Origin: Caldifarciminota bacterium SM23_42
GTDB taxonomy: Bacteria; Hydrothermota; Tepidihabitantia; SM23-42
Assembly (NCBI GenBank): GCA_001303785.1
Contig: LJUJ01000018.1
Coordinates: 1-40,868 of the forward strand
Direction: 5' to 3'
Length of the DNA stretch: 40,868 bases
The notes below the pieces were generated by a model that ran no database searches, was not told where the DNA came from, and saw only the letters and a program-made list of their open reading frames with translations. Shown here one piece after another: positions 5,859 through 37,674 of this stretch. The translations under genes and the position numbers were made by a program. The first letter of the stretch is position 1, and every line of letters starts with the position of its first letter.

Positions 5859-5952
5859 GTTAGCCGTAACTTTTTGCATTTGATTCCGTCTGCTCTATTA
5901 TACTGGATTTGAAATAGCTTCATGATTACATATGATTTCGTATTCGAGTACA

Positions 5953-5981
5953 TTAACATGCACATGTGCGTATGTTATACT
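5953..5981 (+). promoter_or_regulatory. sigma70-type promoter of the lipoprotein gene
   Basis: TTAACA (5953-5958), a 17-nt spacer and TATACT (5976-5981). Transcription from about 5988 would include the AAAGGAGG ribosome site at 6014-6021. Confidence 0.6.
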
Positions 5982-6025
5982 AAAGTTTATAAAGTATGGC
6001 TTTGGGTAGTAAGAAAGGAGGACAC

Positions 6026-6934
6026 ATGAAAATCCCAAAACTGACACGTACCTTACTACTGACATTTGGATGCACGGCAATGCTGGTCGTCGCTTGCGGC
6101 GGAGAAGGTATGAGGACACTGGATCTCGATTTCACCGGAGTCGATCCTCTGTCAAATGACTACCACTATGAGGGATGGGCTATTATTAACGGCGAGGCAA
6201 GATCGACCGGCAAATTCAATCTCGATGCGGCCGGTGATTTCTTCACAGTTGGTGGTGTAGAGATTCCCAATGGCGAGTTCGATGTCGACTTTGATCTGGA
6301 TGATGCGACTGTCATTGTGATAAGTATTGAGCCTGCTGGCGACACAGATGCCATTCCATCTGACACCAAGTTCCTTGCCGGTGACGTAGTTGGCGATGAT
6401 GCTGACCTTACGGTTGCGGCTACACAGGCACTGGGTGATGATTTTACTACCTCCACAGGTAAGGTAATCCTGGCAACGCCGACTAATGGTTCAGGAACGA
6501 ATGAGCTAAGTGGGATTTGGTTCTTGGATTTGGGCAGTGGCTCGCCAGAAGTAGGTCTGTCGTTGCCGACCCTGCCAACAGGTTGGAAGTATGAGGGTTG
6601 GGCTGTCATCAGCGGACAGCCGGTTACAAGCGGTAAGTTCACTGCCGTGGATATGGCTGATGAATCCGCACCCTATAGTGGTCCGCAGCCAGGGCCGCCT
6701 TTCCCAGGTGAGGATTATCTTGAGAATGCTCCGGCTGGTCTTGTGTTCCCTACAGACCTGTCCGGAGATATAGTGGTGATCTCGGTTGAGCCTGATCCTG
6801 ATGATGATACGGCGCCCTTTGTACTTAAACCGCTGGTATACCAACTACCAACTCCAGCCCAGGATCATTTCACCTATGACATGGATAACCAGGCAGGTAT
6901 GACGTTCCCAACTGGTACCGCGTCCCTAAAGTAA
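6026..6934 (+). CDS. Lipoprotein with two tandem beta-sandwich-like domains
   Basis: Encodes 302 aa. ATG 6026 follows AAAGGAGG by 4 nt; an upstream in-frame ATG at 5996 would put a hydrophilic extension before the signal. The lipoprotein signal ends at LVVAC with Cys24, so the mature protein should be lipid-anchored. Two similar units follow: one opens near residue 48 (HYEGWAIINGEARSTGKF) and the other near 191 (KYEGWAVISGQPVTSGKF). Each ends in a strand of the type IVISIEP or VVISVEP. The pattern Y-x-x-W-x-I...G...G-x-F resembles the C-terminal domain of anti-sigma-K factors (RskA), but no anti-sigma or transmembrane part is present; this is an inference. No partner gene is adjacent, and the gene has its own promoter and terminator. 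Function unknown. Confidence 0.75.
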   Translation: MKIPKLTRTLLLTFGCTAMLVVACGGEGMRTLDLDFTGVDPLSNDYHYEGWAIINGEARSTGKFNLDAAGDFFTVGGVEIPNGEFDVDFDLDDATVIVISIEPAGDTDAIPSDTKFLAGDVVGDDADLTVAATQALGDDFTTSTGKVILATPTNGSGTNELSGIWFLDLGSGSPEVGLSLPTLPTGWKYEGWAVISGQPVTSGKFTAVDMADESAPYSGPQPGPPFPGEDYLENAPAGLVFPTDLSGDIVVISVEPDPDDDTAPFVLKPLVYQLPTPAQDHFTYDMDNQAGMTFPTGTASLK

Positions 6935-12666: not shown

Positions 12667-14013
12667 TTACTTTGTGAAGACAACAATTTTTTCACTGAAG
12701 ATGTTCTGAACAGTTTTATACACAGTAAAGTATATGCCGGGATTTACGTTCTTGCTGTAATTATCTCTTAGATCCCATACAAACTCAACCTGTCCATTAG
12801 GTAATACTGAACCGACGAGGTCGCGGACAGCCCTACCTGTGATATCAACAACCTCTGCACTTAAAAGATCATGGTGCCGACGTTCACTAGAACAGCAAAA
12901 TCTAATCGTAATTTTGTTTTTGTGATGTGCAATCTGGATCGAGTTCGTTCGTCTTTCCGTCCGGTCTTGGGTCTTGGTTTCTTCACTTTCTTGCTTCGGT
13001 GTATCATGAACAGTTGTTTTTAGGGTATCAAAACAGTCTACTACCATCCTTCGCGGCCGCTCATCCGGGTAATCATAAGTTGCTACGACCCGAGGTATAC
13101 GCAGTATCTTGAAATAATGGGTTTCGTCTACTCTCGTTACAACATAGGTTTCGTCTGAGACTGGATGGAGGGCAATAGTCCGTGGGATTTCGTTTTCTAG
13201 GTTTGAGTTGTACCACGTTTGACAATAATTATCTGAATACCACACCCCAGGGTAGTATGGGCCACTCCACCACATCTGGTTGGCAATGATCAGGCGCGGC
13301 GCTGATGATACGTTGCGAATTCTGTACTCGGCATCAATCGCGTCAAACGCGCCGGTTCCCGTGTTCCAGCTCGCGCCGCCATCGAGGCTTTGGCGGAAAC
13401 CGATCTTACCGCCGATTCCTACGACATCAGCATTATCCGGATGGCTCGCCATACAGAAATCAAATCTGCTCCACGGTCCCTGGTCATAAACCGTATCCCA
13501 GGTTCTACCATGGTCTTCGGATTTTCTTACCGTCATGCGCGATCCAACGGATTTCAAACTCAGGTACAACGTGTGTGGGTGTTCCGTGATTACCCTCAGT
13601 TCGCTGACAACAGAGTGTGGGTGATCATCGTATAACATTATCCAGCTGTTGTTTGAGACAGTTGTACGATAAATATCACCGTTCTTGGTAACGGCAAAGA
13701 TGTAATGGGATCTCGGACTCTTCTCGATCTCGTATATCTGGTTTCCTTGTAGACCTACGGGAGACCAGGCACCAGTGCAATCCCTTTGCCAGACGCCATC
13801 AATTGTTGCCGCGTACATAACACCCGGGGACAATCCGTTGACTTCGCCGCAGATGATATCATTTGTCCAGAGGTCAAAGCCCGGTAGCCTAATCCAACTG
13901 GTTCCTTTGTCGCTGCTAAACCATATTCCATCGCCACTAGTCGTGTAGATGTGAGTCACATTCGCTGCAGCATACGAAAAAGTGATGAGTATGAGTAACA
14001 CGATGCCCTTCAT
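12667..14013 (-). CDS. Secreted BNR/Ycf48-like propeller protein with sorting module
   Basis: Encodes 448 aa with a short signal peptide (MKGIVLLILITFSYAAA). At least four Asp-box-like turns are visible (SSDKGTSW, SEDHGRTW, SLDGGASW, YSDNYCQTW), indicating a seven-bladed or similar propeller of the BNR/Vps10/Ycf48 kind. The C-terminus (about 360-448) carries a degenerate version of the sorting / FlgD-like module (VDITGRAV ... NPGIYFTVY). AGGAGGAGG lies 14 nt before ATG 14013, which is further than usual; no better in-frame start was found. A consensus promoter lies immediately upstream. The protein is likely exported and surface-attached or released. Ligand unknown. Confidence 0.8.
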   Translation of the reverse strand: MKGIVLLILITFSYAAANVTHIYTTSGDGIWFSSDKGTSWIRLPGFDLWTNDIICGEVNGLSPGVMYAATIDGVWQRDCTGAWSPVGLQGNQIYEIEKSPRSHYIFAVTKNGDIYRTTVSNNSWIMLYDDHPHSVVSELRVITEHPHTLYLSLKSVGSRMTVRKSEDHGRTWDTVYDQGPWSRFDFCMASHPDNADVVGIGGKIGFRQSLDGGASWNTGTGAFDAIDAEYRIRNVSSAPRLIIANQMWWSGPYYPGVWYSDNYCQTWYNSNLENEIPRTIALHPVSDETYVVTRVDETHYFKILRIPRVVATYDYPDERPRRMVVDCFDTLKTTVHDTPKQESEETKTQDRTERRTNSIQIAHHKNKITIRFCCSSERRHHDLLSAEVVDITGRAVRDLVGSVLPNGQVEFVWDLRDNYSKNVNPGIYFTVYKTVQNIFSEKIVVFTK

Positions 14014-14041
14014 AATGCTACGTATTGCCTCCTCCTATATA

Positions 14042-14069
14042 ATTATAGGAGAAAGACGGCATTTGTCAA
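14042..14069 (-). promoter_or_regulatory. sigma70-type promoter of the second BNR gene
   Basis: TTGACA (14069-14064), a 16-nt spacer and TATAAT (14047-14042): both hexamers are perfect. The expected transcript start is at or inside the AGGAGGAGG at 14036-14028. Confidence 0.75.
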
Positions 14070-14247
14070 GCCGACCAGAGAAGGTGCTGCTAAGTTAAAA
14101 AACGAATAGCCTTCCGTACAATGGATACTTACACTATCATTGTAATCTGTTGTAATCGGCGTCCCGCTAAGCGAGGATCCTCGAATTACCCTGAATTATT
14201 ATCATAAGTGAAAATTCGGGATAATCGAACTGCGAAGCAGTTAACAA

Positions 14248-18932: not shown

Positions 18933-19625
18933 TTATGTCTTGGCGTCTAGGTCTTTTATGTATTTGACAAAAGAGGCCAACTTCTTTCTTAACTCCGAAT
19001 AGTGCTTTTTTTGATTTGCCCTTGCCTGCTCGGTCTTTGGTTTCGTCTTCTCTTCCGATTGTGCTGTTGCCAACATCCTCTTTAGCAGGGGCAGCATTTG
19101 TTCCAACTCCTTTGCCATTTTGCCGTACTTTGAGCTTTCAAATGCATCAAGAAAACCTTCTTTTACGAGCCATTCTCGAGGATCAACGGCGGCCTCGAGT
19201 TCTTCACCGCGTAGCCATGATTCATTCGCTTTATCGATTTCAGCAATGACTTCCGGGTACAAGTCTTTAACCGCAGTAATGTATCGTTCGGGGAAACTGT
19301 TGTCATCACCGTCGTATTTAATTAGTTCACACTCCTTATATTCTTCCTCGAACTTTCTCTTGATTTTATCATCGCCCTTCCTGTGGATCGCGAGCATTGG
19401 GGGAATATCAATATACAGCTTCTCACATAAGCGAAAAAGCGTCTGTCGGTGGAGAATGTCATCGAGCACGCGAATATTAGATATGATAAGGTTCAGTCTC
19501 TTTTGGAACTTTGCAATCATTTCGAGTGTTTCTGGATACGTACCTACGGCGATGATCCGTTCTCGACTCAGCAAATCACATATTCTCTTTCTGATTTTTC
19601 GGTTCGGTTCTATGAGCAGAATCAT
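18933..19625 (-). CDS. Degenerate receiver (pseudo-receiver) protein with helical tail
   Basis: Encodes 230 aa. Residues 1 to about 115 follow the receiver fold (MILLIEPNRKIRKRI, LNLIISNIRVLDD, ECELIKYDGDD), but the phospho-acceptor Asp is Asn50 and the N-terminal acidic pair is reduced to Glu6. The switch Lys is kept. The remainder (about 120-230) is helical and charged, with a likely coiled coil, and has no output domain that I recognise. A perfect promoter ends 8 nt before ATG 19625 and there is no Shine-Dalgarno site, so the mRNA should be leaderless. It stands alone, without a kinase. It probably works without phosphorylation, as a scaffold or protein-protein adaptor. Confidence 0.7.
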   Translation of the reverse strand: MILLIEPNRKIRKRICDLLSRERIIAVGTYPETLEMIAKFQKRLNLIISNIRVLDDILHRQTLFRLCEKLYIDIPPMLAIHRKGDDKIKRKFEEEYKECELIKYDGDDNSFPERYITAVKDLYPEVIAEIDKANESWLRGEELEAAVDPREWLVKEGFLDAFESSKYGKMAKELEQMLPLLKRMLATAQSEEKTKPKTEQARANQKKHYSELRKKLASFVKYIKDLDAKT

Positions 19626-19633
19626 GTTAATTG

Positions 19634-19662
19634 ATTATATGAATGCGAAAGCAATATGTCAA
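19634..19662 (-). promoter_or_regulatory. Consensus promoter for a leaderless transcript (pseudo-receiver gene)
   Basis: TTGACA (19662-19657), a 17-nt spacer and TATAAT (19639-19634), then only 8 nt to ATG 19625. The expected transcript start coincides with the start codon. Confidence 0.75.
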
Positions 19663-20890: not shown

Positions 20891-22141
20891 TTAGACATAT
20901 TTATCGATAGCCTGTTTGTATCCCATGTTCAGTAAGAAATGAATGAACCAGAGTCGTTTGGGCCTGGCTAGTCTTCTTAATATTGACCTATATGAATAGC
21001 ATTCCTTCCATGCCCATGCACATCCTTCATTCAGTCTCTCGCGAGACATTAGTTTTGGTCTGAAAACAGCGCCGCCATATCGACTCCAGTCTTTGGTGAC
21101 GATTCTATTCTCATTCAGCAGTCTCGAGTAAACTGGCGTCCCAGGAAATGGTGTGAGGGTGGAGAAAGATGCTGAGTCAAGATTATGTCGTTTCACAAAA
21201 TCCACTGTTCGTTCGAAGACACTTTCGTCATCATGATCAAACCCAAAGATGAACGCGCCATGAATTGATATTCCATGATCCTGTATTTTCTTGATGTCTT
21301 CGGCATAACGCCTTACAGCGTTAATCCTTTTGCCCGCTTCTTCTAAACTCTCCTGTGATAGAGATTCAAAACCGATAAATAGTCCCGCACAGCCGCTGCG
21401 CGCGGCCAGTTCGAGTAGCTCGGGATCCCTAGCTATAGTCAGTGATGCTTGACCTATCCATTTTCTTTTATAGGGTATGAGTGCTCGAAACAAATTCTTT
21501 GCACGTTTTGGCATGCCTACGATATTATCGTCTACAAAAAAAATCAGTATACCCTTGAGTGTCTCGACCTCTCTGAGTACATCACTTACTGGACGGGAAC
21601 GATGGGTGTTTCCAAAAAAAGCGCTGACTGAACAATAACTGCATTGAAATGGACATCCTCTCGATGTTTCTACTGTGTTGAACATGATGTAAGATTTCCG
21701 GCGAAGCAAGTCTCTCCTCGGAACAGGCATGTTATCTAAGCTTCCGAAGCCATTTTGTTTGTAGAATTTCTTGAGTTTTTTTGATTCAATGTCACGTAGG
21801 ACATTATGCCATATGGCATCTGCTTCCCCAATGACAACTGAATCGCAATGTTGAATGGCTTCCTGAGGCATGAAGGAGGGATGGAAACCGCCCATGACAA
21901 CAGGTACGCCTTTTTGCCGGAAGGAATCGGAGATTTCATACGCCCGTGTTACGGTGGGGGTCATGGCCGTTATTCCGACCATATCAACTTTTTCGTCGAA
22001 GTTTATCTTTTCCAAATTTTCATCGACTACAGAGACGTCAATATCTGGTGGTGTTAGGGCAGCCAAGGTTATGATCCCCAAATGTGGGGCCAATTTTCCG
22101 CCGCCTGCGGGTATATGAGGTACAATTAACAATACGCGCAT
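20891..22141 (-). CDS. B12-binding-domain radical SAM protein
   Basis: Encodes 416 aa. ATG 22141 follows AGGAGG. Residues 1 to about 135 form a cobalamin-binding-like Rossmann domain (VLLIVPHIP, VGITAMTPTV, VVMGGFHPSFMPQEA). The radical SAM core has the cluster motif Cys163-x3-Cys167-x2-Cys170 (SRGCPFQCSYCS), the strand IFFVDDNIV, and GFESLSQESLEE and GAFIFGFDHDDES. This is the BchE/HpnJ-like architecture, whose members methylate or rearrange lipids, pigments or natural products, or act in uncharacterised steps. The C-terminal 80 residues are basic and possibly membrane-associated (RRLARPKRLWFIHFLLNMGY). No biosynthetic partner lies nearby, so the substrate cannot be inferred. Confidence 0.9.
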   Translation of the reverse strand: MRVLLIVPHIPAGGGKLAPHLGIITLAALTPPDIDVSVVDENLEKINFDEKVDMVGITAMTPTVTRAYEISDSFRQKGVPVVMGGFHPSFMPQEAIQHCDSVVIGEADAIWHNVLRDIESKKLKKFYKQNGFGSLDNMPVPRRDLLRRKSYIMFNTVETSRGCPFQCSYCSVSAFFGNTHRSRPVSDVLREVETLKGILIFFVDDNIVGMPKRAKNLFRALIPYKRKWIGQASLTIARDPELLELAARSGCAGLFIGFESLSQESLEEAGKRINAVRRYAEDIKKIQDHGISIHGAFIFGFDHDDESVFERTVDFVKRHNLDSASFSTLTPFPGTPVYSRLLNENRIVTKDWSRYGGAVFRPKLMSRERLNEGCAWAWKECYSYRSILRRLARPKRLWFIHFLLNMGYKQAIDKYV

Positions 22142-22546: not shown

Positions 22547-22574
22547 TTGACACTCAGCACTGCCAGCCTATAAT
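22547..22574 (+). promoter_or_regulatory. Consensus promoter for a leaderless transcript (DUF4159 operon)
   Basis: TTGACA (22547-22552), a 16-nt spacer and TATAAT (22569-22574), then 7 nt to ATG 22582. No Shine-Dalgarno site can fit. Confidence 0.8.
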
Positions 22575-22581
22575 TATATGG

Positions 22582-23214
22582 ATGCATGCATTTATTTTAT
22601 TGGTTTTGCTATTCGGGCAATACGATTTCACGATTGCGCGGCTGAAATACGGTGGCGGTGGTGATTGGTACGGAGATCCGTCGTCTCTGACTAACCTGCT
22701 GACCGCGATCAGCGAAAGAACAAACATCAGAGCCGCACCGCGTGAGGTAGTCGTGGAAATCACCGACCCGAAATTGTTCGAGCATCCTTATTTGTACATG
22801 ACCGGCCACGGCAATGTGCACTTCACAGATGATGAGATAAAGATTTTGCGTAATTATTTCAGAGCCGGGGGCTTTCTACATGCCGATGACAATTACGGCA
22901 TGGATTCATCGTTCCGGCGCGAGATCGTGAAGATTTTTCCGGAGTCGCCTTTAATCGAGTTGCCGTTCGACCACCCGATATACCATATATTTTATGAATT
23001 CCCGGACGGCCTGCCAAAAATCCACGAGCACGACAATAAACCGCCCCAGGGTTTTGGTATTTTCTATGACAACCGTCTGGTTATTTTCTACACTTATGAA
23101 TGTGATCTTGGTGATGGTTGGGAGGATCCGGATGTGCACGATGATCCGCCTGAAAAACGGGAGCAGGCTCTGCAAATGGGCATTAATATCGTAATGTATA
23201 GCCTCACTGATTAG
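22582..23214 (+). CDS. DUF4159 protein, exported
   Basis: Encodes 210 aa. A short hydrophobic N-terminus (MHAFILLVLLFGQ) is probably a signal peptide, followed by the DUF4159 core: FTIARLKYGGGGDWYGDPS, YLYMTGHGNVHFTDDEI, LRNYFRAGGFLHADDNYG and LPFDHPIYH. DUF4159 has a glutamine-amidotransferase-like fold in domain descriptions, but no function is established. In other phyla it often sits with MoxR, DUF58 and BatA-like genes; none of these is here. It is the first gene of a tightly packed operon with the DUF4175-like gene (1 nt gap) and the TPR gene. ATG 22582 is preferred over ATG 22578, which is out of frame. Confidence 0.85.
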   Translation: MHAFILLVLLFGQYDFTIARLKYGGGGDWYGDPSSLTNLLTAISERTNIRAAPREVVVEITDPKLFEHPYLYMTGHGNVHFTDDEIKILRNYFRAGGFLHADDNYGMDSSFRREIVKIFPESPLIELPFDHPIYHIFYEFPDGLPKIHEHDNKPPQGFGIFYDNRLVIFYTYECDLGDGWEDPDVHDDPPEKREQALQMGINIVMYSLTD

Positions 23215-23215
23215 C

Positions 23216-26200
23216 ATGCCAAATATCGAGATAATACGCTGCAAGACCAAGCAATACACAATACATCAGAATCTATCTGATTTCTTTGCAATTTTGATCT
23301 TTACCTGCGCCACCATAATCATTTCGATTGCGGTTGCGCTGTTTCTTCTCAAATCACCGTGGTATGGTCTGCTCGGCATCATACCCTTGCTCTTTTTCCG
23401 TCCGCGCGATCTCATATACCGGGCCCGAGAACTAGAAGAGAAGATCGGATTGAAAGGCGAAATCGTCAACAGTCTGCAGCTGTCAAGAATTCCCAAAGAC
23501 AGTAAAGAGAATTATTCTCAAGAACTGATCCAAGCATTCATCGATGAAGCAGCCACGAGAATCGAGAAAATTGATACTCGCAGGTTTGTTGATCGCGGGT
23601 CACTCGCGCTAGCGGCGCGCTTCGTGCTGATCGCCGTAGCATTTGCCTTGATCCAACCGGCAGTCTTTCCCGAACGCTTTTGGTATTCACTCAATCACCG
23701 AATAGAATACAACGTATCGCCGGGCAGTGTTGATTATCCAAAAGACACACAAGCCGATGTTGCGCTGCAAATCTGGGGCGTTTATTTGCCGAAGATTGTA
23801 AACCTGCGGCTCAGTGCTGGTGAGGAAACAACCAGGCAAACAGTGAGCGTTCAGGACAACATCGCCAGGAGCACGGTAACTGTTTCCGAACCTTTGATCT
23901 ACCATTTCGAGGTCTTTGAGCATAAAACAAGAAAATATGAGTTGTATCCGGTTGAGCCTTTGTACATTGAGAATCTATTTTTCCATCTTCGATATCCGGC
24001 TCACACCAAACTGGCTGAGGAAACGAGAACCGGCCGCCAACTCGTCGTTCCCGAGAAGACCGTGGTATATGTTCAGGGACGGGCGTCTGAATTGCTGCAA
24101 GCAGCCAATCTCGACTTCGGCGACACACTTGCCTTAACACATGAAGGCAGAGAGTTCCACGGAGAATTCGTGGTGACCGCAAGCGGTACCGCAACACTAC
24201 ACCTGAGAGCGCGCGGCGAATTGCATGAAGGAATCAGGATCTATGCAATCCCTGACCTTGCACCGTTGGTCGATATATTCTACCCAGGCACAAACGTGAA
24301 TTTGCCTTATGACATGAAACTCGATGTCGGTATACGGTGCAGCGACGATTACGGATTGTCTGCGGGCACGTTCCACTTCGCTTTTGAGATAGATACTACG
24401 AAGCTCGTGGCATTGAAGCGAGGCGCTTTTGAAGATACGGTCTACATCTTATGGGATCTGTCAGATCTCGGCATGCTGCCGGGCGATGAGGTTTCATATT
24501 ACGTAACGATCCGCGATAACAGCGGACAGGTAACCAAGAGCAATACATACTACGTATACTTTCCCACCATGGAACAGATGTATGAGGCGATCAATGAACA
24601 AGAGGCCATGCTTGAAATCGATATCGAAGACATGCATACCGAACACGGTGAACATATAAAGGAGGTCGCACGCATTCAGGAGAAGCTCATGAAAGAGCGG
24701 GAGTTGTCGTGGGCCGATCAGGAAAAACTGAGTGAGGCGATAAAAGAAGAGGAAGTAATATTGGAACAGATCAACCAGTGGCAGACAGAATTGGAAGAGA
24801 CAATTGAGAAGTTAAATGAAGGGATAATCCTCGATCAGAAATCGATTGATCGCTTGAATGAGATTTCCCAAATACTCGAAGAGCTAGCACCCGAGGAGTT
24901 GAGAGAGGCGCTCGAGAACTTGCGGGTCGCAATGGAACAGCGTCCCGGTGACATGCAAAAGGCGCTGGAGCAGATGCGGCAGCATCAGGAAGAATTGGCC
25001 AAAGCTTTGGAGCGCTCCCTCGAGATACTTAAACGCTACGAGCAGGAAGAAAAATTGAGGCAAATCGCCGAGCGCGCCAAGGAATTGGCCGAGCAGCAGG
25101 TACAAATAGAGGAATTGACCGAGGCAGAGGATGGGCTGGCGGCTGAGAATCAGCAAGAGGTGGATCAGGGTATGGAAGAACTCATTGATAAGTTGAACGA
25201 ACTGGCCGCCTCTGAGGGGCTGGAGGAAGAAATCAGGGAAGCGCTTAGGCAGATGGCGAACGAGATGCAGAATCTAAAGAGCGGAAGTGGTAAAGACAAA
25301 AAAACGGGGCTTCAGAACCTGGCAATGAATCTCGAACAGCTGTATGAAAAATTGACCCAGGGACGCTTTGCGAACCTGCGTAAGAATCTGTTGGAAAGCC
25401 TCAAGCAAATAATCGAGACTTCTGAAGCGCAAGAGAAATTGATAAACGACGGACTGAAAATAGATCCCGATTTACAGGGGAAATTGATTCAGGCAACCGA
25501 GACAATTGCCGAAAGTCTTTTTGCACAGCAAACCAAGAGTCTTTTCGTAAGCCCGGAATTCGGCAAGGGTCTGGCCAGGGCAACATTGCGTATGGAGCAG
25601 GCCCAAAAATACCACGACAACGCAAAAGTGGGAAAATTGAGAGCGACCGAGGCGATGAGGGAATTGAATCTAGTAGCACGTGATATACTCTTCATTCTTG
25701 CGAGAATGAAGCAAGATGGTTCCTCCACCGGGATAAACTCCTTCATGCAGCAGCTGGGGGATATCACTAACAGTCAGATGTCGCTCAACCAGGCATTGAT
25801 GGGTATCCTTCCCATACCCATGCAGGGACTTAGCCAGGGCCAGAAGAAACAACTGCAGCGCCTTGCGGCGCGCCAGCGTGCGTTGCGTGAGGCATTGGAA
25901 TCTTTGCGCAACGAAGCTGCGGCTGGTAGATACCAGGATGTCCTTGGTGATGTCATACGTGAGATGCAGGAGATGGAAGAGGATCTTTTTCAGTACAAGG
26001 TCAGTCGGGAATTGATCGAGCGGCAGAAAAAGGTGATATCAAGACTGCTCGACAGCCAACGTTCAATCCGCAAAGAGGATTTTGCCAAGAAAAGAAAAAG
26101 CAAGCCTGGCCAGGATGTCCGAGAGCGTGCGAGTCCGGCTCCGCTAGCCCAGGAATTGGGCGAGGATGAGCTCCGTGAGCTGCTTCAACAGGAATTGCGC

Positions 26201-26269
26201 AAACCGTACCCAGAGGAATATGAAATATACATCCGCGAATATTTCAGAGCACTACTGGAAGAGCAATGA
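23216..26269 (+). CDS. DUF4175-like large membrane protein with long coiled coil
   Basis: Encodes 1017 aa. Two hydrophobic segments lie near residues 25-62 and a third near 130-148; a 320-residue beta-rich, probably extracytoplasmic region follows (Ig-like strands, ending IRDNSGQVTKSNTYYVYF near 450). Residues about 455-760 are a very charged, Glu/Gln-rich helical region with heptad character (EELREALENLRVAMEQ). A further helical part near 760-1000 includes PMQGLSQGQKKQLQRLAARQ. The order matches the DUF4175 family found beside DUF4159 genes. The C-terminus ends 4 bp into the TPR gene (ATGA overlap), so translation is coupled. Likely a cell-envelope assembly component; mechanism unknown. Confidence 0.8.
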   Translation: MPNIEIIRCKTKQYTIHQNLSDFFAILIFTCATIIISIAVALFLLKSPWYGLLGIIPLLFFRPRDLIYRARELEEKIGLKGEIVNSLQLSRIPKDSKENYSQELIQAFIDEAATRIEKIDTRRFVDRGSLALAARFVLIAVAFALIQPAVFPERFWYSLNHRIEYNVSPGSVDYPKDTQADVALQIWGVYLPKIVNLRLSAGEETTRQTVSVQDNIARSTVTVSEPLIYHFEVFEHKTRKYELYPVEPLYIENLFFHLRYPAHTKLAEETRTGRQLVVPEKTVVYVQGRASELLQAANLDFGDTLALTHEGREFHGEFVVTASGTATLHLRARGELHEGIRIYAIPDLAPLVDIFYPGTNVNLPYDMKLDVGIRCSDDYGLSAGTFHFAFEIDTTKLVALKRGAFEDTVYILWDLSDLGMLPGDEVSYYVTIRDNSGQVTKSNTYYVYFPTMEQMYEAINEQEAMLEIDIEDMHTEHGEHIKEVARIQEKLMKERELSWADQEKLSEAIKEEEVILEQINQWQTELEETIEKLNEGIILDQKSIDRLNEISQILEELAPEELREALENLRVAMEQRPGDMQKALEQMRQHQEELAKALERSLEILKRYEQEEKLRQIAERAKELAEQQVQIEELTEAEDGLAAENQQEVDQGMEELIDKLNELAASEGLEEEIREALRQMANEMQNLKSGSGKDKKTGLQNLAMNLEQLYEKLTQGRFANLRKNLLESLKQIIETSEAQEKLINDGLKIDPDLQGKLIQATETIAESLFAQQTKSLFVSPEFGKGLARATLRMEQAQKYHDNAKVGKLRATEAMRELNLVARDILFILARMKQDGSSTGINSFMQQLGDITNSQMSLNQALMGILPIPMQGLSQGQKKQLQRLAARQRALREALESLRNEAAAGRYQDVLGDVIREMQEMEEDLFQYKVSRELIERQKKVISRLLDSQRSIRKEDFAKKRKSKPGQDVRERASPAPLAQELGEDELRELLQQELRKPYPEEYEIYIREYFRALLEEQ

Positions 26270-26985
26270 TCATATTATTCTTGGTGTTTAGCATTGAAGC
26301 GCGAATCGACAGTTTGGAAAATGCCTTTGCCTTGAATCGACAGCTTGAGACCTTACTTCAACTCAATGAGTGCTACGTAGCACGAAGCGAATACCACAAG
26401 AGCATCGAGTTGTTGAAAAGCAATCAGCAACATTATCCAAAGGATGAAGACAAATCACGTGTCATGTACGAAATTGGTGATGTGTTTCTATTTGCGGGGG
26501 AAATCGCAAAGGCTCATGATACTTACTTGCGATTAATTGGAAGGTACCCACGAATGGATATCGCTAACGATGCGGCCCTGAGGATGTACTTGGTCGAGGC
26601 GGCCAAGGATGATACGGTTCAACTGAAAAGGTTGATCAATGTGGTTCGCTTGTATGAAACCGCGCAGTATCTGGACGCCGTCGATTCAGCCCGAGTTTTG
26701 TTGAAATCGCTTGTTGGCGCCTATGCTTATTACTATATGGCACTTGCTTACGATGCGCAGGGCGAATTGCCGTTGAGCCTCAGTACCATCGTGGAATTGA
26801 ATGAGAAGTACCCAAAGCACTCAATTCAAGAGGCCGCGCTCCTTCGGGCCGACATTCATATGAGGCTGGGTGAGCCAAAGAAGGCTCGCGAGATTTTAGA
26901 GGATCTTATTGTGCGTGAGCCGAATACAGTATATGCATTCAAGGCGCGTCAGAAACTGGAACTTATGGGCGCTACCGAGCGATAG
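26266..26985 (+). CDS. Exported tetratricopeptide-repeat protein
   Basis: Encodes 239 aa and overlaps the DUF4175-like stop by 4 bp. The N-terminus is a short signal-like hydrophobic run (MIILFLVFSIEA). TPR-like helical pairs follow: QLNECYVARSEYHKSIELL, YEIGDVFLFAGEIAKAHDTY, YYMALAYDAQGELPLSLSTI and LLRADIHMRLGEPKKAREIL. TPR arrays bind proteins, so this is probably the adaptor of the three-gene DUF4159/DUF4175 system, located outside the cytoplasm or at the membrane. The stop codon lies inside a weak terminator-like hairpin. Confidence 0.8.
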   Translation: MIILFLVFSIEARIDSLENAFALNRQLETLLQLNECYVARSEYHKSIELLKSNQQHYPKDEDKSRVMYEIGDVFLFAGEIAKAHDTYLRLIGRYPRMDIANDAALRMYLVEAAKDDTVQLKRLINVVRLYETAQYLDAVDSARVLLKSLVGAYAYYYMALAYDAQGELPLSLSTIVELNEKYPKHSIQEAALLRADIHMRLGEPKKAREILEDLIVREPNTVYAFKARQKLELMGATER

Positions 26986-31168: not shown

Positions 31169-31197
31169 TTGCGTTGCTGTTGGATTTTGCTTATAAT
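31169..31197 (+). promoter_or_regulatory. Promoter for a leaderless panC transcript
   Basis: TATAAT (31192-31197) with TTGCGT (31169-31174) 17 nt upstream. Only 5 nt separate the -10 from ATG 31203 and there is no Shine-Dalgarno site. A perfect TTGACA at 31156-31161 is too far away (30 nt) to pair with this -10. Confidence 0.6.
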
Positions 31198-31202
31198 GAC
31201 AT

Positions 31203-32039
31203 ATGCAGTTGGTGCGGAGCGTCAGTCAGGCCAAGAAGATAATTGCGTCAATCAAGAAAAGGGGCATGAAAATTGGCCTGGTACCCACGATGGGCTATTT
31301 GCATGAGGGGCACTTGTCGCTCGTAAGGATTGCGCGCAAGAAATGCGATTTTTTGGTCGTATCGGTATTCGTCAATCCGACACAATTCGGTCCGGAAGAA
31401 GACTTCCGTAAATACCCGCGTGATTTGAAACGGGATTTGAGGTTACTGAAACTAGAAGGTGTGGATTTGGTGTTCTATCCTTCTGTGAGCCAGATGTACC
31501 CCGATGGTTTTCGGACGTATGTGGAGGTTGTCGAGTGGAGCAGGCTATTATGTGGCGCATCACGTCCCATACATTTTCGGGGCGTGACCACCGTGGTGTT
31601 GAAATTCTTCAATATCGTGCAGCCCGATATCGCAGTTTTTGGTAGTAAGGATTTTCAGCAGGCAGTGATTATCAAGAAGATGGTGAAGGAGTTGAACCTG
31701 AATGTAAGAATCGTAACCGGCAGGATTGTGCGCGAAAGTGATGGTTTAGCCATGAGTTCCCGCAACAAATATCTGAGTGAGAAAGAGAGAAAGAATGCCG
31801 CAGTTCTTTACCAATCTTTGAAATCGGTAAAGCGAGCGTACAAAAAGGGGTTGCGTAAGCCACGGCCTGCCGTCGAAATGATGGCAAAGATGATAGAACA
31901 GAAAGGCGGGGGGATCGACTATATCCAAACCGTAGACAAGGACACACTTGAGCCTGTCAAGAAATTAAAAAAGGGAACCCTTATTGCCGTGGCTGTATTT
32001 TTCGGACGAACCAGACTGATCGATAACATCTTATTGTAA
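31203..32039 (+). CDS. panC: Pantothenate synthetase
   Basis: Encodes 278 aa, the usual length. It condenses pantoate and beta-alanine with ATP to make pantothenate, the precursor of CoA. Motifs are the HIGH-like TMGYLHEGHLSL (His34, His37), VSVFVNPTQFGPEEDF, FGSKDFQQ and the KMSKS-equivalent region GLAMSSRNKYLS. All expected motifs are present, so it should be active. No panB or panD gene is adjacent. The mRNA is probably leaderless. The C-terminal segment RTRLIDNILL is typical. Confidence 0.95.
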   Translation: MQLVRSVSQAKKIIASIKKRGMKIGLVPTMGYLHEGHLSLVRIARKKCDFLVVSVFVNPTQFGPEEDFRKYPRDLKRDLRLLKLEGVDLVFYPSVSQMYPDGFRTYVEVVEWSRLLCGASRPIHFRGVTTVVLKFFNIVQPDIAVFGSKDFQQAVIIKKMVKELNLNVRIVTGRIVRESDGLAMSSRNKYLSEKERKNAAVLYQSLKSVKRAYKKGLRKPRPAVEMMAKMIEQKGGGIDYIQTVDKDTLEPVKKLKKGTLIAVAVFFGRTRLIDNILL

Positions 32040-34133: not shown

Positions 34134-35855
34134 CTAGTCTTTCATGAATTCTTCTTCCATGAGTTGATGCTGGTAGAGTTTCCAGTATAATTCTTGCTTC
34201 TTGAGCAGGTCTTCGTGGATGCCCTGTTCGATGATCTTTCCTTTATCCAGAACATAGATGTAGTCACAGATGGAGAGAACCGATAGCCGGTGCGAGATGA
34301 TAATCATTGTCGTGTCCGGTGTTTGAGATAGTTGACCAATCAGCTCCTTCTCGGTGTCCGCATCGAGATTCGATGTTGCATCATCGAGCACGAGTATTTT
34401 GGGTTTACCAAGGATCGCACGGGCAATCGCCACGCGTTGTTTCTCACCACCGGAAATTCTCAAACCGCGTTCGCCAATGAGCTCATCCCATCCCTTGGGC
34501 GCACCCCGGACAAATCCCTCGAGCTGAGCCAGCTTAATTGCGTTGTTAACCAGCGGAGTATCCACCCTCCTGCCAAAGGTGATATTGTTATAGATAGTTT
34601 CCGAAAAGAGCGAAGGTTCCTGGGGTATATAGCCAAACAGAGAACGTACCTGCGAAAGCTGGATGTCTTTCACGTCTGCATCATTGAGTTTTACTCTCCC
34701 TTCGGTCGGATCGGCGATTCTCATTAATACTTGGAGCAGCGTTGTCTTGCCTGAGCCCACGGTTCCTGCCAGGCCAATCTTTTGGCCGGGTTCAAATTTT
34801 ATGTTGATACCATTGAGAATGAGCGGACCGTTTTTTGTGTACTTGAATGATACATTCTCCAGTGCGATCCCCTTGTGCTTCGTTTCTTTTAAGTCACCAT
34901 CATCCACCACGTCGGTTGGGTGATTCTTGATTTCCTCGAGGCGCTCGTTTTGTACCTGGGCGCGTTTTTTTGAAACAAAGAAATTGCCGATGCGAAGCAT
35001 CGGATCTAACAGGATTATTATATAGGCGTTGAATGCTACAAATTCACCGATTGTCAGACTGCCCCTGATTATGAATAGTCCGCCGAAGAGAAGCACGAGT
35101 ATAACACCTATTTCCTCAATAGCTGTGAATAGATTGTGTACCAATGCTTCAATTCTTATGACCCTGATCGATGCGGCTACCCGCTCCTTCAGAATATCCA
35201 GGAAGCGTTGGTCGGTTTTGTCTTCGATGGTATAAGATTTTACTAGCTTCACACCCGCGAAACTCGATTGCAAGTGATTGTTTGCCTTTGATATCGATTC
35301 GCGCCATGCGTAGTAATACTTGTACATGACCGGGCTTAGCTTTAACCAGCCGACCGAGGCGATGCTTATGGGCAGTGCCGAAATGAGCGTCAGTAATGGA
35401 TTGATTCTTATGAGAAAAAAGAGGGCGATTACTAAGGTGAAGATGCCTTCGATGGGGCGGAATATTCCCGAGCAGGAGAACCAACCAAGCTCATTGAGAT
35501 CATGGTCTACACGCTGCAGTATATCACCGGCCGGGAAGCGACTGAGAAAAGAATGCCCTTTACGCAGCAGCTTAGATAGGATATTTGTACGTTCATCGAG
35601 AAGGAAAATCTCGTTGGTTCGTCCTCGAGTGAACGGTAATAAGGAATTGAATACTGCGCGCAAGAGTCCGATTCCACCAATAATCAATATGTACCTTAAC
35701 AAATCCTGGCGGGCAAACCCGGCTCTAATACCGTCTATGACGTCCTTTAGAATGTATGGGAAGATCAGTGAGACAATCGTATTGATGAACGAGAAGGCAA
35801 TGAGAAAACTCAGCCATAATTTGTGTCGTTTCCAGAAATATACTACTGATCTCAT
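34134..35855 (-). CDS. ABC exporter half-transporter, subunit with degenerate catalytic site
   Basis: Encodes 573 aa. Residues 1 to about 320 carry the six transmembrane helices of a type IV (MsbA/Sav1866-like) exporter; about 335-565 are the nucleotide-binding domain. Walker A is GTVGSGKTTLL and the signature is ISGGEKQRVAIARAI. Walker B ends LVLDDATSNLDADTE, with Asp where the catalytic Glu is normally found, and the switch His is present (IISHRLS). The start shares one base with the upstream partner's stop (TAATG), so the two are coupled. The pair fits asymmetric heterodimeric exporters (TM287/288, BmrCD type). Substrate unknown. Confidence 0.9.
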   Translation of the reverse strand: MRSVVYFWKRHKLWLSFLIAFSFINTIVSLIFPYILKDVIDGIRAGFARQDLLRYILIIGGIGLLRAVFNSLLPFTRGRTNEIFLLDERTNILSKLLRKGHSFLSRFPAGDILQRVDHDLNELGWFSCSGIFRPIEGIFTLVIALFFLIRINPLLTLISALPISIASVGWLKLSPVMYKYYYAWRESISKANNHLQSSFAGVKLVKSYTIEDKTDQRFLDILKERVAASIRVIRIEALVHNLFTAIEEIGVILVLLFGGLFIIRGSLTIGEFVAFNAYIIILLDPMLRIGNFFVSKKRAQVQNERLEEIKNHPTDVVDDGDLKETKHKGIALENVSFKYTKNGPLILNGINIKFEPGQKIGLAGTVGSGKTTLLQVLMRIADPTEGRVKLNDADVKDIQLSQVRSLFGYIPQEPSLFSETIYNNITFGRRVDTPLVNNAIKLAQLEGFVRGAPKGWDELIGERGLRISGGEKQRVAIARAILGKPKILVLDDATSNLDADTEKELIGQLSQTPDTTMIIISHRLSVLSICDYIYVLDKGKIIEQGIHEDLLKKQELYWKLYQHQLMEEEFMKD

Positions 35856-37639
35856 TATACCCCGCTCAAATATTGAAGTCGGTACATCTTATAGTAATGA
35901 CCTTTGTGTTGGATCAGATCATTGTGTTTTCCTTCTTCCACGAGTTTCCCTTTGTGTACGACCAGAATACGGTCGGCCAGGCGTGTTGTGGTGAGACGGT
36001 GCGCAATGATGATTGCGGTACGTCCTTTCAGTAATTCTTTCATTCCTTGCTGGACTAACCGTTCGCTCTGGGGATCGACTGACGATGTCGCTTCATCGAG
36101 AATGAGTATTTCAGGATCAAAGACCAATGCCCGGGTATATGATATGAGTTGCCTTTCGCCAAAAGATAGATTGATGCCCTGTTCAATAATGTTTGTATCG
36201 TAGCCATCCGGGAGATTTAGAATTCGTTGATGTATTTGTGCGCGTTTTGCAGCATCATGGATTCTTTCATCGGGTATCGTCGCATTGAATAGTCTCAAGT
36301 TATCAGTAATTGAACCTGGGAATAAGATGACGTCCTGTGGCACAAATCCGATTCTTGAACGCAAAGAATGACGCTCTATGTGAGTCAGCGATGTGCCGTC
36401 AATAATGATGTCTCCATCTTGAGGCGAATAATATTTCAACAAAAGAGAAATGATCGATGTCTTACCGCCGCCGGTCTCGCCGACGAGCGCTATTCGCTCG
36501 CCTTTTTCTATCTGGAAATTTAGATTCTTGAGTACCCAGTTCTTATCTTCGTAAAAGAAACTTAGGTTTCTGAATTCAATAACATTTTCGAATTCGCTTA
36601 AGACGTGCTTTTCATCCTTCCGGAATTCTTCTTCAGTTGACAGAATCTGGAATGCCCTTTCCGCGGCGGCAAAAGCTCGTTCGATAACGTTTATCTGGTC
36701 AGACAAACTGCGCAGGGGTACGAAAAGGCGGGTGATATAACTTATGAACAAATAGAGGGTGCCGATCGTGATCAGTCCGCGCAGCGCCCAGAGTCCTCCG
36801 ATGCCGAGTACAAGGATAACACCCATAATTTCGCCGAGTTCCACAAAAAACCAGATGCGGTACCAGAATGATAAAGCTTTCAATTCGTAGTCGTACTTGT
36901 CTTTGCCCAATCTGTTGATTTTCGACACGAAGCGATCTTCCTGTTGGAACATCTGTACAACGTGCAGTGATTTCACCGTCTCCACGATGAAACCATTTAT
37001 TTCAGCAATTTTCTTCCTCAAATTTATGTACACCGGTCTCACATGACGCTCAAACCACCAGAAGCAGTACGAAAATATCGGCATCATGACCAGAATGAGA
37101 ACGTAAAGACGCCAGCTGACCACGATCATTACCACAGACATACCGACGAGAAGGGCGAGATTTTGGACCAGCACGACTGCGGTTGAAGAGAAGAGAAACT
37201 TTAAGGCTTCGGTATCACTCTCGACTCGTGAAATGAGCTTACCCACCGGGTTCTTGTCAAAATAGGAGACTGGGAGACGCAGTAAGTGTCTGAAGATATC
37301 TGCCTTTAAATCAGCGATTGCCCTTTCGCCAACGCTCATTATCTCGATTTGCTGGAAATATCTTACGAGAATAACCACAATCTGAATGATTATGTATATG
37401 ACGGCAAGGATTATCAGGCCCTGCATACTCTTGTTGGGAATTTCGACATCGATGGCGCGTCTGATCAAAATGGGTCCTAATAGAGTGAGGAGAGTTGAAA
37501 ATAGTAGTAAGAACGAAGCGATAATAATCGTTTTTGAATACTTCCTGAAGTACGGCAGTAGTTTCTTCAAGACACGCCAATTTCTTTTTCTTGTGCCGTC
37601 TTGCTCAACGCTATACCTATCTTCCCAATGCCAATGCAT
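35855..37639 (-). CDS. ABC exporter half-transporter, subunit with consensus catalytic site
   Basis: Encodes 594 aa. A six-helix exporter domain (about 30-340) precedes a nucleotide-binding domain (about 360-590). Walker A is GETGGGKTSII and Walker B is ILILDEATSSVDPQSE with the catalytic Glu intact; the signature is LSFGERQLISYTRAL, with Phe replacing the first Gly of LSGGQ. The altered signature matches the partner's altered Walker B: together they would form the degenerate site, while this subunit's Walker motifs and the partner's ISGGE form the active one. The -10 box CATAAT ends 7 nt before ATG 37639 and there is no ribosome site, so the operon mRNA should be leaderless. Confidence 0.9.
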   Translation of the reverse strand: MHWHWEDRYSVEQDGTRKRNWRVLKKLLPYFRKYSKTIIIASFLLLFSTLLTLLGPILIRRAIDVEIPNKSMQGLIILAVIYIIIQIVVILVRYFQQIEIMSVGERAIADLKADIFRHLLRLPVSYFDKNPVGKLISRVESDTEALKFLFSSTAVVLVQNLALLVGMSVVMIVVSWRLYVLILVMMPIFSYCFWWFERHVRPVYINLRKKIAEINGFIVETVKSLHVVQMFQQEDRFVSKINRLGKDKYDYELKALSFWYRIWFFVELGEIMGVILVLGIGGLWALRGLITIGTLYLFISYITRLFVPLRSLSDQINVIERAFAAAERAFQILSTEEEFRKDEKHVLSEFENVIEFRNLSFFYEDKNWVLKNLNFQIEKGERIALVGETGGGKTSIISLLLKYYSPQDGDIIIDGTSLTHIERHSLRSRIGFVPQDVILFPGSITDNLRLFNATIPDERIHDAAKRAQIHQRILNLPDGYDTNIIEQGINLSFGERQLISYTRALVFDPEILILDEATSSVDPQSERLVQQGMKELLKGRTAIIIAHRLTTTRLADRILVVHKGKLVEEGKHNDLIQHKGHYYKMYRLQYLSGV

Positions 37640-37646
37640 GGTTCAT

Positions 37647-37674
37647 ATTATGTACACATGACACTCGAAGTCAA
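37647..37674 (-). promoter_or_regulatory. Promoter for a leaderless ABC-operon transcript
   Basis: TTGACT (37674-37669), a 16-nt spacer and CATAAT (37652-37647), then 7 nt to ATG 37639. Confidence 0.65.

Follow-up and report, generated by a model that had tools for sequence, protein, structure and literature searches.

Promoters of the SigA/sigma-70 type with a -10 box that ends 5-8 nt ahead of the start codon very probably yield leaderless mRNAs beside Shine-Dalgarno (SD)-led ones in the genome of Caldifarciminota bacterium SM23_42. We observe the promoter geometry, its statistics, its exclusivity towards SD sites, its restriction to first genes and its conservation. The window, i.e. the whole stretch of 40,868 nt that was analysed, is an entire contig of a 2.53-Mb, WOR-3/Stahlbacteria-like MAG that is 97% complete. 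The nearest relatives of its panC (71-73% identity) are found on the 'candidate division WOR-3 bacterium' chromosomes CP070686.1 and CP070705.1, followed by a Stahlbacteria MAG.

Four genes or operons in the window share one promoter design, as a sequence-only reading had proposed with correct coordinates: a 'pseudo-receiver' gene, the DUF4159 operon, panC and an ABC operon. In all four, 5-8 nt separate the -10 box from the ATG, and the -35/-10 spacer measures 16-17 nt. The claim that no SD site fits is likewise borne out, with an SD match of at least 4 nt absent from all four genes. The DUF4159 promoter consists of a TTGACA -35 box (22547-22552, + strand) and a TATAAT -10 box (22569-22574, +) with a spacer of 16 nt, and leaves a gap of 7 nt to the ATG at 22582. 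The putative leaderless first gene behind it (22582-23214, +; PF13709, E = 4.7e-73) has a start codon at a position that is common to most orthologues in the alignment. Upstream of panC, a weak -35 box, TTGCGT (31169-31174, +), and a TATAAT -10 box (31192-31197, +) are spaced by 17 nt, with a gap of 5 nt to the ATG at 31203; the putative leaderless gene (31203-32039, +; PF02569, E = 8.5e-107; TIGR00018) encodes a pantoate ligase. The pseudo-receiver gene (18933-19625, - strand) is putatively leaderless or very short-leadered, and its TTGACA (19657-19662, -) and TATAAT (19634-19639, -) boxes have a spacer of 17 nt and a gap of 8 nt to the ATG at 19625. No match to its 230-aa product was found in Pfam or NCBIfam. 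The ABC operon opens with a putative leaderless exporter subunit gene (35855-37639, -; PF00664/PF00005), followed by a second ABC subunit identified with Pfam (34134-35855, -), and carries TTGACT (37669-37674, -) and CATAAT (37647-37652, -), with a spacer of 16 nt and a gap of 7 nt to the ATG at 37639. The description of these promoters as consensus applies to the DUF4159, pseudo-receiver and ABC promoters; that of panC, with three mismatches in its -35 box, falls outside this description.

The DUF4159-DUF4175-TPR operon (22582-26985) continues with genes for a DUF4175 protein (23216-26269, +) and a TPR protein (26266-26985, +), which lack an SD site and start 1 nt past, or overlap, the preceding stop. 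This arrangement suggests translational coupling of both inner genes behind a putatively leaderless first gene.

An SD-led contrast gene in the window, encoding a B12-binding radical SAM protein (20891-22141, -), has AGGAGG close upstream of an ATG without adjoining -10 box, and three close orthologues keep the SD site. Strong AGGAGG sites had been ascribed to most neighbours, which is overstated: an SD match of at least 5 nt is present in 13 of the 26 other genes examined in the window, and many of those without one are operon-internal. A TTGACA/TATAAT promoter runs into AGGAGGAGG (window 14014-14073, -) upstream of the gene at 12667-14013 (-), where the SD site lies ~14 nt from the ATG with an in-frame ATA and ATT in between; the start of this gene may be non-ATG or misplaced. 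Upstream (5936-5995) of the gene at 5996-6934 (+), TATACT ends 14 nt before the ATG and no SD site is found, a configuration that possibly reflects a short non-SD leader outside both modes.

The statistics were obtained from 40 genome stretches which, together with the window, amount to 762 kb of readable sequence, about a third of the genome, with a further 72 kb masked as N. Genes (616) and their starts were called by a simple purpose-written caller that relied on coding content only, which kept upstream signals from influencing where a start was placed; in its first run this caller chose all four window starts. The genome-wide -10 scan against shuffled upstream regions, suggested earlier as a check, was run on this sample and gave counts far above chance. 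Among the 616 genes, 25 exact TATAAT boxes lie at gaps of 5-8 nt, compared with about one per position elsewhere. A -10 box at these gaps precedes 50 of the 204 unit-first genes without SD site (dinucleotide shuffles: 5.2, maximum 9), against 1 of 101 SD-led first genes and 1 of 118 inner genes without SD site. Most of these 50 boxes (45) are accompanied by a -35 box at a spacing of 16-19 nt (dinucleotide shuffles: 0.75, maximum 3). Paired -35/-10 boxes at gaps of 5-8 nt were counted in 45 of 202 first genes without SD site, 1 of 101 with SD site and 0 of 269 inner genes, which confines the class to unit-first genes (Fisher tests: 4e-8 for the SD contrast, 1e-18 for the first-gene contrast). 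Across 345 first genes, 47 paired promoters lie at gaps of 5-8 nt versus about 1.1 per position elsewhere; only 3 fall into the trough at 9-13 nt and 24 lie at 14-22 nt, the latter mostly at SD genes. The peak at 5-8 nt remains significant when the local rate at 14-22 nt is taken as the reference (Poisson P < 1e-15). When nearby alternative ATG/GTG starts are allowed, 62 of 351 first genes are included versus 4-21 at shifted gaps. Roughly 14-15% of the sampled first genes belong to the class, which corresponds to ~8% of all sampled genes; start errors make these estimates approximate. Start codons of the 49 listed -10-adjacent genes are ATG (45) and GTG (4), never TTG. Leaderless and SD genes do not differ in how the initial 36 nt of the CDS fold. 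Some 150 unit-first genes lack both an SD site and an adjacent -10 box, which leaves room for wrong starts, other promoters or a third initiation mode.

In the two nearest families, f1 and f2, all orthologues of the DUF4159 (23/23) and ABC (15/15) genes with enough upstream sequence have the adjacent promoter. Both hexamers are kept in these two sets while the spacers drift. In the 23 DUF4159 orthologues, conservation per position is 0.96-1.00 in the hexamers and 0.35-0.57 at most spacer positions, rising up to 0.78 beside the -10 box. The relatives of the ABC operon have the consensus TTGACA and a -10 box of the form [CG]ATAAT, mostly at a gap of 7 nt. For panC, all 19 orthologues of f1, the nearest family, have the adjacent promoter and its -10 box, with a gap of 5 nt in 17 of them, and only the TTG of the -35 box is kept among relatives; a tally of 20/23 includes a doubtful f2 site (L167), and the four f2 genes are taken as being without the adjacent promoter. 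In f2, panC is preceded by what reads as the end of an upstream gene, and panC seems to lie behind another gene in most of the more distant families. In these orthologues, the gap between -10 box and start shifts by a few nt and never exceeds 12 nt. The pseudo-receiver makes a weaker case for the leaderless class than the others: many gaps among its relatives measure 8-11 nt, often 9-11 nt, so that leaders of 2-5 nt are possible, and some homologues have longer leaders with an SD site. A second pseudo-receiver homologue in the same genome (G000:C31:122718-123419, L203; 34-37% identity) also has TTGACA/TATAAT near its ATG, at a gap of 9 nt.

Three other explanations were weighed against these data. 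Promoters near an ATG could be expected by chance at 46% GC, and the sequence-only reading rested on four cases only; as shuffles, positional controls and the gap-shifted pattern all lie far below the observed counts, we reject this explanation, whose probability is practically negligible. Mis-assigned starts, with true codons further downstream and ordinary leaders, would agree with N-termini often being least conserved and with the few DUF4159 orthologues that align only from about residue 12. However, the panC, ABC and most DUF4159 orthologues align from residue 1 with co-located start codons, and a caller blind to upstream signals chose all four starts, on which grounds this option was rejected as very improbable.

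The genes might also be leadered, with transcription starting further upstream and a non-SD leader, the TATAAT by the ATG then being an AT-rich signal of the initiation region and not a promoter. AT-rich sequence does precede non-SD starts in some bacteria (PMC9581028). Such a signal would not account for a -35 box 16-19 nt upstream of 45 of the 50 adjacent -10 boxes, nor for conserved hexamers around a drifting spacer in the DUF4159 and ABC orthologues, and it is absent from the inner genes without SD site; we regard this explanation as unlikely.

Two start modes in one genome, leaderless and SD-led, are strongly supported by the sequence data, i.e. by the bimodal distances, the near-exclusive classes, the unit-first restriction and the orthologue conservation, in agreement with what had been suggested from the four genes. 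The trough at gaps of 9-13 nt is expected if starts are of two kinds, those without a leader and those with one that just fits an SD site. In SD-led first genes of the sample, the promoter tends to sit 14-22 nt upstream of the ATG, which implies leaders of only about 8-16 nt. The usual transcription start point is located 6-8 nt downstream of the -10 box, so a -10 box ending 5-8 nt before the ATG places this point at, or within ~2 nt of, the AUG. From this geometry we infer where transcription starts, namely at the AUG, and how ribosomes enter. RNA polymerase would begin at the A of the AUG or no more than about 2 nt from it, the resulting leaderless mRNA would have no room for an SD site, and its 5'-terminal AUG would be recognised directly, by 70S ribosomes or by 30S subunits with initiation factors. 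Other units of the genome use SD-site leaders, often short ones. Within the nearest families, the -10-adjacent class is inherited on a gene-by-gene basis. An additional promoter further upstream of these genes may exist. The 16S 3' ends of the same genus carry a normal anti-SD, CACCTCCTTT, and read GGATCACCTCCTTTC, so SD pairing is considered normal. A search for the 16S tail in the own genome found nothing, the gene probably being missing from the MAG, and Rfam gave no match at the 16S-end loci of the relatives, which are partly masked.

Leaderless genes of such geometry are well described, e.g. the TA-led genes of Actinobacteria and those of Deinococcus. The TA-led study describes a TA-like -10 signal ~10 bp before the start that exceeds dinucleotide shuffles, in genomes where SD-led genes occur as well (Zheng et al. 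2011, PMC3160421). The class described here resembles it in its fixed -10 signal above shuffles and the SD-led genes of the same genome, and combines three features of leaderless (TA-led) genes: such a signal, the absence of an SD site and the first-gene position. It differs in its near-consensus TTGACA and a genome of 46% GC, and WOR-3 is not among the groups named in the pertinent passage of that study. For Deinococcus-Thermus, a published study reports a -10 box that precedes ORFs by ~6-7 bp and coexists with a GGAG motif class, without pathway bias and conserved across the genus (PMC12340547, citing de Groot et al. 2014). The adjoining -10 box, the coexisting SD-type class and the conservation within a clade are shared, and the position of the -10 box upstream of orthologues is kept across the clade here too; in Deinococcus-Thermus, the class comprises nearly one third of genes, mostly with TACACT, whereas the WOR-3 sample has ~8%, mostly with TATAAT. 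The mixture of SD and leaderless starts in one genome also matches the leaderless class of GeneMarkS-2, by which, as summarised in a later source, 21.6% of bacterial species are predicted to transcribe leaderless genes (Lomsadze et al. 2018, via PMC9581028). A literature search of partial coverage found no report of leaderless genes in WOR-3. An uncultured phylum would join the bacteria with a sizeable leaderless class, and SD-tuned gene finders may misplace starts in WOR-3 MAGs.

The suggestion that the leaderless set is regulated differently gains no support. By Pfam/NCBIfam, its functions are a mixture of housekeeping and membrane ones, and the listed genes include a semialdehyde dehydrogenase, PdxJ, RibBA, class I (Trp/Tyr) and class II (D/K/N) tRNA synthetases, SmpB, undecaprenyl diphosphate synthase, a GlmS-like protein, GcvT, an aminopeptidase, a Fur-family regulator and transporters. 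A specialised regulon was considered and is not supported, the listed genes showing no sign of a single one. It is conceivable, if rather doubtful, that selection acts on the initiation mode as a gene-specific trait, a defined set of genes staying leaderless across the divergence of two families because mRNAs of the two modes are translated differently under some condition; the outcome would be a genome-wide switch without dedicated regulators.

To follow the class across the phylum, the pattern TTGA-N18-20-TATAAT-N5-7-ATG was counted against a control with N14-16, as raw counts uncorrected for base composition and genome size; this control is conservative because it contains real SD-led promoters. 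The own genome has 100 matches versus 35. Summed over both strands, the counts are 1435/413 in 13 f1 genomes, 440/115 in three f2 genomes, 267/37 in three f5 genomes and 222/31 in six f4 genomes, and a similar excess is seen in families f1-f5, f7 and f8. CP070705.1 has 105 N5-7 sites, two other WOR-3 genomes 6 and 20, and an AT-rich Clostridiaceae genome 31, versus 0-9 in outgroups such as Moorella, Alicyclobacillus, Thermotalea, Calditrichota, Zixibacteria and Cloacimonetes. Much of the phylum thus has an excess of the adjacent spacing, though a weaker one; 100-kb samples from four relatives hold too few genes for an estimate of class size. The WOR-3 clade allows one to trace, orthologue by orthologue, how leaderless starts are gained and lost. 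The f6 genomes have only ~9 N5-7 sites each, and the numbers in other families extend from almost zero to about 76. In f6 (G031, G033, G039 and others), 3-15 -10-adjacent sites were counted per genome versus about 22-160 in sister families of the same class, which may reflect a loss of leaderless genes.
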